Below, piece by piece: positions 1 to 55,892 of a stretch of 64,000 nt of DNA. Within the stretch, counting starts at the first letter, position 1; the number at the start of each line of letters is the position of its first letter. The notes beneath the pieces are model-generated. The model was given only the letters and a program-made list of their open reading frames with translations. It did no database searches and was not told the origin of the DNA. Source of the DNA: Pseudomonadota bacterium. Its GTDB lineage: Bacteria > Pseudomonadota > Alphaproteobacteria > Rhodospirillales > Magnetospirillaceae. The translations under genes were made by a program, and so were the position numbers. The stretch covers positions 1 through 64,000 of the forward strand of contig JAJXUO010000003.1 of NCBI GenBank assembly GCA_021782815.1. The letters are read 5' to 3'.

Positions 1-100
1 CACCAAGGAAACACCGACCTCTGGGCCGACGACGCCTATGCACGATACATCAGACTCCCACCCGTTTCATGCATCGCGGGTCGGCAACGCCGGTGGGGGG

Positions 101-193
101 CTAACCGGCGTCGCGATAAGTCAAACTCATCGCGACTTGGTATAAGACCAAATCCCGGTGATCGGAACCGATTATCGAGCCCTCAGGCGCCGG
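101..193. repeat. Composite palindromic intergenic repeat, copy A (two element ends back to back)
   Basis: Positions 101-145 match 55464-55508 at 38 of 45 bases (shared start CTAACCGGCGTCGCGAT, shared end CGCGACTTGGTAT). They form a hairpin with TCGCGAT and ATCGCGA arms. Directly after it, 147-193 begins with ACCAAATCCCGGTGATCGG, which matches the left end of the 55355-55508 element, and 157-193 matches 3729-3765 at 31 of 37 bases. Here the right end of the element precedes its left end, the reverse of the order at 55355-55508. Bases 1-100 upstream hold no convincing gene. One frame stays open from the window edge, but it runs on into the antisense of the next gene and looks like a GC artefact. 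Confidence 0.7.
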
Positions 194-3717: not shown

Positions 3718-3720
3718 ACC

Positions 3721-3765
3721 CGAATTGCGGTGATCGGAGCCGATCAGCGCACCCTCATGCGCCGG
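3721..3765. repeat. Palindromic intergenic repeat, copy C, overlapping the 3' end of the oxoprolinase gene
   Basis: Bases 3729-3765 match 157-193 at 31 of 37 positions and are also related to 55369-55408. The copy contains a perfect palindrome TGATCGG-AG-CCGATCA and a hairpin GCGCA-ccctca-TGCGC. It fills the 37-bp gap between two convergent genes and supplies the stop codon (3755-3757) and last codons of the minus-strand gene. It may act as a bidirectional transcript end structure; no T-run is present. Confidence 0.6.
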
Positions 3766-54149: not shown

Positions 54150-55283
54150 TCAGGCGTCATCCGTCGGCTCGAATAGGCGGATCACCTCGGACGCGCTGAA
54201 AAGGCGGTCTCGGCCGCCGTCATCCCCCCGGGTCACGATACCCAGATCGATCAGACGCTTGATGGCGGTATTCATGGCCTGGAAGGTTACCGCGCCCCCC
54301 GCTTGCGCCAGCGCGTCACGGACGGTGAAGGCCGGTTTGGTGATGATCCAGGGCAGCAGCCGGTGGATGACGCTGTGCGCGCGCACCGCTTTGGTCGCCG
54401 CCTGCCATCGGGCATGCACCTGCCCGAGTTTTTGCAGCCGCTCCAGGTTGGCGGCGGCACTTTGTGCCGCCATGGAACAGAACACCCGCGTCCAGGCCGA
54501 AAACTCGCCTGTGCGACGGGCGTCCTTGAGCGCATCCACATAGAGGGTCTTGTTCATATGCACCGCCTCGCCCAGGAAGGCGCAGGCATGGCGCAACGCG
54601 CCTTTCCGTCGCAGGGCGAGCGGCACCAGCAGGCGGCCGACGCGGCCGTTGCCATCCGGCACGGGATGGATATGCTCGAACCACCAGTGCGACAATGCCT
54701 GGCGCACCCATTCGGGCCGTGCGTCGGCCTCGGCGGTGAAGGCCTCCCAGTCGGCAAGCGCCTGGGCTGTCGACGCCGGGGCGGTGTAGAAGAATGTCGC
54801 CCCCGGCGCCTCGGGATCGTAGGTGCCGTTGGGATAAAGCTTCAGTTTTCCGGCGGTGGCGGCGACCATCGGGTCCTTCGCCCGCTCGAACAGGCGGCGG
54901 TGGATGAGACAGGCCGCCGCGCCGTAAGTCACGGAGTCGCCCCGTTCGGACAATTCGTCGAAGGCCTCGGCGGTCGCCGCCACCTCGCGGGCATCCTCGG
55001 GATCCTTGGCGCGGTTGCGCGCGCTTTGGTACTCCAGCAGATCAGTAAAGGTCGTGGTCGCCCCCTCGGCTCCCGAGGAATGGACCGCGTCGAGACGGGC
55101 GAAGAGTTTGCCGGCCACATCGGGCACCGGAAATGCGGCCAGCGCCCGGTCGAACGCCCCGACCTCCGTCATGGCGCGCTCGAGCGGGCTCCACACCTCG
55201 TCGAGCCTGGGAAAAGACGGAACCGCCGGCAGATAACACAGCCGCCCCCGCGCATCGGGCTCGAAACGGCCGAAACCTTGCAT
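54150..55283 (-). CDS. Fic-domain AMP-transferase-type protein with N-terminal inhibitory motif and C-terminal winged helix
   Basis: A 377-residue protein. The Fic_N region (~1-100) contains S69-x3-E73-G74 in HSSGAEGATTT, the class II inhibitory helix that blocks the active site. The Fic core has the catalytic loop HPVPDGNGR with His206 (common form HPFxxGNGR; here Val replaces Phe), and the C-terminus (~300-377, FTVRDALAQAGGAVTFQAMN) looks like a winged helix. Fic proteins of this class move AMP onto target proteins and can control their own expression. The partner is unknown. An inverted repeat at 55302-55320 just upstream may be its operator. Confidence 0.9.
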   Translation of the reverse strand: MQGFGRFEPDARGRLCYLPAVPSFPRLDEVWSPLERAMTEVGAFDRALAAFPVPDVAGKLFARLDAVHSSGAEGATTTFTDLLEYQSARNRAKDPEDAREVAATAEAFDELSERGDSVTYGAAACLIHRRLFERAKDPMVAATAGKLKLYPNGTYDPEAPGATFFYTAPASTAQALADWEAFTAEADARPEWVRQALSHWWFEHIHPVPDGNGRVGRLLVPLALRRKGALRHACAFLGEAVHMNKTLYVDALKDARRTGEFSAWTRVFCSMAAQSAAANLERLQKLGQVHARWQAATKAVRAHSVIHRLLPWIITKPAFTVRDALAQAGGAVTFQAMNTAIKRLIDLGIVTRGDDGGRDRLFSASEVIRLFEPTDDA

Positions 55284-55354: not shown

Positions 55355-55508
55355 TTATACCAAATCCCGTTGATCGGACCCGATCACCGGAGCCCCTCAA
55401 GCGGCGGGCGGGGTCTTCCAGACCCCTTGCCTAACGCGGCATCAGCCGCGCGTCGCCTTGCTCCTAACCGGCGTCGCGATGAGCCCTGCTCACCGCGACT
55501 TGGTATTA
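55355..55508. repeat. MITE-like palindromic element with inverted ends, copy B
   Basis: A 154-bp element. Left end TTATACCAAATCCCGTTGA and right end (minus strand) TAATACCAAGTCGCGGTGA agree at 15 of 19 positions. Inside are hairpins GGGGTCT-tcc-AGACCCC (55410-55426) and GCGGC-atca-GCCGC (55436-55449). 55464-55508 matches 101-145 at 38 of 45 bases, and the left part is related to 157-193 and 3729-3765. There is no coding capacity. Its right end provides the stop codon (55506-55508) of the 128-residue gene. Confidence 0.7.
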
Positions 55509-55892
55509 CGCCTTCCCGGGCATCGGGGGCAGCCCCGCCTCCACGCGCTCGGCACAGCTTCCGGCGGCCTGTTCCGCCATCTGGGCCAAACCGGCCAGGC
55601 CGCCGTCCGGCTTCTGAACGGCGCCCGCCGCAAAGCCGCCGGTGGAGAAGTCCACCTGCTGCCCTTCCTGGCAGGCATAAAGGTATTTCTGATCCTGGCG
55701 CACCACGCAGGCGCCGAAGGCCTTGGTGAAGCCGAAACAGGGATCGCCGCCCATGCTGCCGTTGTTGATGGACACGACGCTGCCGGCCTTCAACAGCGTT
55801 TGCAAAAGCGCGGTCACATCGGCGGCCTGCCCGCCCTGGGCGCTGCCGGCTTTCAGGGCGCCATACACCGCCCACAGCACATAGATATCCAT
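55506..55892 (-). CDS. Small protein of unknown function (DUF3395-like pattern)
   Basis: A 128-residue protein with a good ribosome site (AGGAGAG 4 bp before the ATG). No signal peptide or membrane helix. The core VYGALKAG...ADVTALLQTLL...NNGSMGGDPCFGFTKAFG...YLYACQEGQQVDF recalls, from memory, the Y-G..DVT..L..L..GDP.PG..K.. pattern of DUF3395 domains (C-terminus of DNAJC11 and stand-alone fungal proteins); this was not tested. It follows the cyclic-nucleotide-binding gene on the same strand after 73 bp and is probably co-transcribed. Its last codon and stop lie in the repeat at 55355-55508. Confidence 0.7.
   Translation of the reverse strand: MDIYVLWAVYGALKAGSAQGGQAADVTALLQTLLKAGSVVSINNGSMGGDPCFGFTKAFGACVVRQDQKYLYACQEGQQVDFSTGGFAAGAVQKPDGGLAGLAQMAEQAAGSCAERVEAGLPPMPGKA

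Follow-up and report, generated by a model that had tools for sequence, protein, structure and literature searches.

A short stretch of DNA with inverted ends and internal palindromes, at positions 55355–55508 of the window (the whole 64,000-nucleotide stretch that was analysed), raises the question of what kind of element it is, what might have moved it, and how it came to lie exactly on the stop codon of a gene. The window copy reads TTA-TACCAAATCCCG...CGCGACTTGGTA-TTA. In the first-pass annotation it had been described as a MITE-like element of 154 bp with inverted ends, three internal hairpins and no open reading frame. Indeed, the left end TTATACCAAATCCCGTTGA and the reverse-complemented right end TAATACCAAGTCGCGGTGA share 15 of 19 bases; the boundaries, however, had to be moved inward, because the TTAs at the two extremes form a direct repeat, which lies outside the inverted repeat. 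The element proper spans 55358–55505 on the forward strand and measures 148 bp, the former 154 bp being the element plus its target duplication, with one TTA at 55355–55357 and the other at 55506–55508. Its terminal inverted repeats are TACCAA (55358–55363, forward strand) and TTGGTA (55500–55505, reverse strand), which are found in exactly this form in 42 and 64, respectively, of the 79 full-length copies described below. As had been noted, no ORF belongs to the element itself; where long frames cross it, they are run-throughs of a GC-rich genome.

The element folds far better than shuffled versions of itself (z of −5.8 as RNA and −6.2 as DNA), and four hairpins are predicted instead of three, together with a closing stem that joins end to end. 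All four are given for the forward strand: H1 (CCCGTTGATCGG ACC CGATCACCGG; 55366–55391) and H2 (GGCGGGCGGGGTCTTCCAGACCCCTTGCC; 55403–55433), with compensatory changes at 3 and 7 pairs, respectively; H3 (CGCGGCATCAGCCGCGC; 55437–55453), which is doubled as a 27-nt unit in the subfamilies of 172 and 199 bp; and H4 (55470–55505), which adjoins the right end and in most copies of subfamilies M2 and M3, not in the window copy, has a GANTC at a fixed place. The right-hand TTA is the TAA stop codon of a 128-aa gene on the reverse strand (55506–55892), which matches no Pfam or NCBIfam model; the sister species keeps its start and reading frame, with a protein ~9 aa shorter at its end. The element is also adjoined by a Fic-domain gene (Fic_N + Fic; 54150–55283).

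The dispersed family that had been proposed proved larger than its three pieces suggested. A BLAST search of the genome with the element gave 46 matches, the best of which outside the window had an E value of 7e-73, so the copy number cannot be put down to chance. In ~217 kb fetched around matches in the 3.44-Mb draft, in which contig 41 corresponds to the window, we found 126 family pieces, comprising 47 fragments and 79 full-length copies; the latter number is a lower bound, the genome holding at least 79. These copies have common boundaries, and the idea of only three copies without conserved ends thus fails. They fall into three subfamilies: M1 (148 bp, mean identity 93%), to which the window copy belongs, M2 (145 bp), and M3 (172 bp, mean identity 97%, some copies identical), which is M2 with an extra 27-nt hairpin; forms of 197–199 bp carry one more 27-nt unit beyond M3. 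Many contigs of the draft terminate inside copies, which makes the family one cause of its fragmentation. Minimal forms of 39–42 bp (L076, L318, L320, L322), which consist of a single hairpin with TACCAA/TTGGTA-type ends and TNA flanks, are apparently the smallest unit of the family.

The related pieces reported earlier at 101–193 and 3721–3765 are indeed fragments of the family. The first comprises the right end of an M2/M3-type (145/172-bp) copy (102–143, forward strand), interrupted by an IS110-family element and followed by TAA, and, directly behind it, the left-end fragment of a second copy (147–193, forward strand), the TAA being common to both. The second is a 46-bp left-end fragment (3720–3765, forward strand) with 89% identity to M2 positions 3–48.

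The flanks of the copies point to transposition. A TNA is present on both sides in 72 of the 79 full-length copies and is identical on both sides in 61 (TTA in 34, TAA in 18, TGA in 5 and TCA in 4); among the 18 copies without identical TNA, several are tandem copies with one common TNA. The sister genome G001, from the same genus, has no detectable copy of the family, and we searched it with the flanks of 29 copies, joined via one TNA. Sixteen sites in G001 align through the junction with the element absent, and a stop codon lies at the same place in 13 of these 16 empty sites, as read from the alignments. None of them shows the TNA-TA-TNA expected from a TA duplication, so the duplication is 3 bp long; copies flanked by TGA/TGA and TCA/TCA likewise rule out a TA duplication. 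At the window locus itself, the MITE and the neighbouring Fic gene are both absent from G001, where the genes flanking the Fic position are adjacent; a clean empty site is therefore lacking here, as G001 also has no Fic gene and its 128-aa gene ends ~9 residues earlier.

These data support the identification of the element as a MITE, that is, a non-autonomous DNA transposon: it is short, has no transposase of its own and has terminal inverted repeats, with a target duplication at most copies and empty sites in the sister genome. Of the two proposals made at the outset, the non-autonomous transposable element is borne out by these defined ends, duplications and empty sites, by tandems built on one duplication, and by the IS630 elements with the same ends in relatives (see below), whereas the duplications and empty sites speak against a REP-type element; REP sequences are not known to have target duplications or complete transposon ends. 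A REP/BIME element or dispersed structured RNA with no relation to transposons would also be palindromic, intergenic and present in high copy number with a conserved fold, but it would leave the TNA duplications, the empty sites, the tandems with a common TNA and the matching IS630 ends without explanation, and we give this reading hardly any chance. Similarity to a known structured RNA was not found: no Rfam family matches the element, and the Rfam covariance models gave only two matches, both below the gathering score and neither to the family copy at the window locus. Searches of phage and plasmid collections with the element gave no match; with a Rhizobiales-type element, one Agrobacterium plasmid matches.

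What moves the MITE? A transposase with matching ends was found, in relatives only: Magnetospirillum-type relatives hold IS630-family elements with the ends of the MITE. L248 from Niveispirillum, found by a TIR-pattern scan, has a length of 1165 bp, matching ends and TCA/TCA flanks, and encodes its transposase in two frames that overlap (HTH_33; DDE_3, E value 3.5e-25; NCBIfam IS630, E value 9.8e-45). L366 and L367, of 1164 and 1165 bp and flanked by TAA/TAA, lie in the genome G036, which holds many of the MITEs alongside them. All three have an identical TNA on both sides, and their TIRs agree at 13–15 of 16 positions; TACC ends and TNA duplications are also found in further related IS630 elements, among them L357 (TGA/TGA) and L369 (TAA/TAA). 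IS630 elements are described as duplicating TA, not TNA. Judged by its flanks, the clade with the MITE's ends departs from this textbook rule, with a 3-bp TNA duplication that includes TCA and TGA.

The two ends of the IS630 elements differ (end A, TACCAAGTCCCGGTGATCAGGACC; end B, TACCAAGTCCCGGTGAACCTGACTCACGG). Over the inner 10 positions, the left end of the MITE matches end A at 6.6 and end B at 3.1, while its right end matches end B better (6.1 versus 4.4 for end A). End B and the right end of the MITE also have an imperfect hairpin in common, in which GACTC, a form of GANTC, often occurs. IS and MITE resemble each other over ~25 bp at each end only. From these correspondences, the probable mobiliser is an IS630-family element of ~1165 bp with a DDE_3 domain, the same two ends and TNA duplications, and we infer that this IS630 moved the MITE. 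The MITE's own genome gave no DDE_3 (PF13358) match, which means that the MITE is stranded there, or that its partner has been lost or lies outside the assembly. With the transposase gene missing from the assembly, the family here is probably a stranded, recently amplified population.

Elements of the IS1031 group duplicate TNA, and an IS5-type (IS1031-like) transposase could therefore be considered as the mobiliser, and the bacterial family does have IS5-type elements, with ends of the form GAGTCC... and duplications of TGA or TA. Paired TACCAA ends, however, were found in none of 60 IS5-type loci examined, nor at any of the own genome's four DDE_Tnp_1 loci, making such a mobiliser very unlikely.

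An IS110-family element was rejected for the same role: it lacks ends of this kind and has itself inserted into copies of the M2 type. Its transposase has 410 aa and matches an NCBIfam model named 'RNA-guided' (L093, 1–1500). The element is site-specific and uses the MITE as its target, at one fixed point, CGGTTAG^...TTTCTA^GGAGCAAGG, as seen at several loci (L093, C72, C79, C30, C71 and window positions 1–101, where the end of such an element, inserted in another copy of the MITE family, begins at the contig start). A 76-bp TSD-flanked element (L082, 443–518) consists of a MITE right end, ~28 nt of IS110 end and TTTGGTA, and resembles what a deletion in an IS110-bearing MITE would leave behind.

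The position of the window copy on a stop codon is no isolated case. In the own genome, 53 copies lie outside coding sequence, and in 34 of them the duplicated TNA coincides exactly with the stop of a called gene, compared with 51 of 419 (12%) other non-coding TNA sites at the same loci (p = 9e-16). Genes were called by a simple GC3-based procedure and the exact fractions are approximate, yet a contrast of this size does not hinge on the gene caller. The flanks show a preferred context, C-TTA/TAA-G, and the excess persists when only TAAG/CTTA sites are counted (16 of 27 copies on a stop versus 4 of 35 controls, p = 9e-5). It recurs among family relatives (6 of 10 copies versus 7 of 130 controls, 5%) and, by TIR-pattern scan, in other genera (16 of 30 versus 37 of 1064, 3.5%), the latter including Rhizobium, Ensifer, Shinella, Agrobacterium, Telmatospirillum, Magnetospirillum, Roseomonas and a Kiloniellaceae MAG. 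The proteins of the host genes are whole, with SelR, the SecA C-terminal SEC-C motif, Usp, an ammonium transporter and others reaching the ends of their Pfam profiles. The orientation of the copies at stops is opposite in two subfamilies of the own genome, the right end adjoining the stop in 11 of 12 M1 copies and the left end in 10 of 12 M3 copies (p = 6e-4).

Since TNA fits TAA, TGA and their complements, and the duplication restores the stop, such an insertion leaves the gene unharmed, and survival of harmless insertions could by itself produce an excess at stops. The alternative is true target selection, in which insertions are steered to stops or gene 3′ ends, for instance by the TAAG context together with open or hairpin-forming DNA of the termination zone. 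Insertions per TNA site amount to 0.67 at the stop, 0.16 at 1–10 bp, 0.08 at 11–30 bp and 0.04 at 31–60 bp from it; the rate at the stop is thus 6.8-fold that at 1–30 bp downstream (p = 4e-6), though both positions spare the gene. This, the flanking context with the excess among TAAG/CTTA sites alone, and the recurrence in Rhizobiales and Rhodospirillales favor steering. On the other hand, a reading frame is unreadable for a DNA transposase, the rate declines gradually with distance, as it would under selection too, and not a single one of the five IS630 copies is at a stop, which suggests, for this small number, that the stop-codon address may not come from the transposase. Target selection as the full explanation strikes us as somewhat doubtful, and we lean toward a mixture of insertion preference, for the TAAG context and gene 3′ ends, and survival of harmless insertions.

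The hairpins offer a further possible reason for the position of the copies. Across 35 aligned copies, drawn from several genera, compensatory changes occur at 18 of 42 predicted pairs, indicating that the hairpins are maintained, either because folding of the RNA behind the stop is required or because they are acted on by replication or the machinery of transposition; we infer that they matter in RNA or in single-stranded DNA. In E. coli, a similar 3′-end role has been proposed for REP sequences close to stop codons. Copies behind stops might be retained for an effect of their hairpins on the host transcript, be it stabilisation, termination or dampening, a reading with which this conserved structure agrees, as do the start of the first hairpin ~7 nt past the stop and the location of 30 of 59 own-genome copies between convergent genes. 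Against it, the window copy shows no intrinsic terminator pattern or U-run, the hairpins could persist through the action of transposase or replication, and a conserved need for such a module is lacking, given the absence of the family from the sister species. We regard retention for a 3′-end function as a tentative proposal, with the balance tilted against it.

Of 51 M2/M3 copies, 46 have a GANTC in their final 45 nt, as do 8 of 28 M1 copies. In most M2/M3 copies this CcrM site occupies a fixed place in H4, 25 nt from the right end; IS630 end B has it as GACTC. Its placement may put transposition under cell-cycle methylation control.

Taken together, a MITE moved in trans by a clade of the IS630 family that recognises TACCAARTCYCGRTGA ends and a 3-bp TNA target, stranded in this genome and situated mostly on stop codons, offers a highly probable explanation of the locus, judging by ends, flanks and copy positions. 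The IS630-type transposase would recognise the TACCAA ends, the left end of the MITE resembling one IS end and its right end, with the GATGAG-N5-CTCATC hairpin, the other, and would duplicate TNA. Insertion into a TAA or TGA stop or its complement would re-create the stop on both sides, as is seen at the copies, and the mRNA of the host gene would gain, ~7 nt past the stop, a 3′ untranslated region with several hairpins, often between convergent genes. This region might alter mRNA stability or translation. The excess at stops would arise via insertion preference, survival or both. That an IS630-related transposase with a 3-bp TNA target itself aims MITEs at stop codons, duplicating them harmlessly, across Rhodospirillales and Rhizobiales, we consider rather unlikely.

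The family can be compared with several known repeats. REP sequences, whose palindromic unit is of the GTAG/CGTC type, likewise form hairpins just behind stop codons, but they have neither transposon ends nor target duplications and are linked to RAYT tyrosine transposases; the present element has both ends and duplication. CIR repeats were reportedly described by Chen and Shapiro in 2003. In the account of a review, CIR of Caulobacter and Brucella measure ~110 bp, have a hairpin arm at each of their two TA termini and carry GANTC in the loop of a hairpin (PMC2229807). Similarly alphaproteobacterial, our element has hairpin arms and, in most M2/M3 copies, GANTC apparently in the H4 loop; it differs in that GANTC is missing from most M1 copies and in that the review's account of CIR lists no TIR and gives their target duplication as unknown (PMC2229807), the likeness drawn here being one of description. 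Bru-RS1 of Brucella has a length of 103 bp (PMC3163539), and a Brucella pecoris locus with our ends is exactly 103 bp long and flanked by TTA/TTA, a match by length only. Bru-RS1 and Bru-RS2 are targets of IS711 (PMC3163539, PMC2266754), as M2 copies are of IS110, but no transposase is named for Bru-RS. The RIME and ABC palindromes of Rhizobium and Sinorhizobium, mosaic palindromic intergenic repeats according to the summary of Osteras 1995 in PMC2573895, are similar in this mosaic, intergenic character and in their occurrence in Rhizobiales, again going by description. Our element is probably kin to CIR, Bru-RS and RIME, a lead drawn from description and length only; if true, it would tie widespread alphaproteobacterial palindromic repeats, whose mobility is unexplained, to a transposase clade with an unusual 3-bp TNA target.

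Beyond this class, RUP of Streptococcus pneumoniae, a hairpin MITE of ~100 bp, has ends that match IS630-Spn1 (PMC2229807, PMC3049150). Like the present element, it is intergenic and enriched between convergent genes, and its ends match an IS630-family element; its target, however, is TA, its partner is in the genome and it has no reported stop-codon address, while here the target is the 3-bp TNA and the partner is absent. The text of the review of prokaryotic MITEs mentions neither IS630 nor stop codons. The nearest precedent for the link to stop codons is the BOX repeats of pneumococcus, 36 copies of which supply the stop codon of a gene and which are also enriched between convergent genes (PMC3049150). 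BOX, however, encodes the stop, whereas our element targets and duplicates the stop that the gene already has, a safe-haven arrangement in which the duplication re-makes the stop, the host gene stays whole and its mRNA gains a new structured 3′ end.
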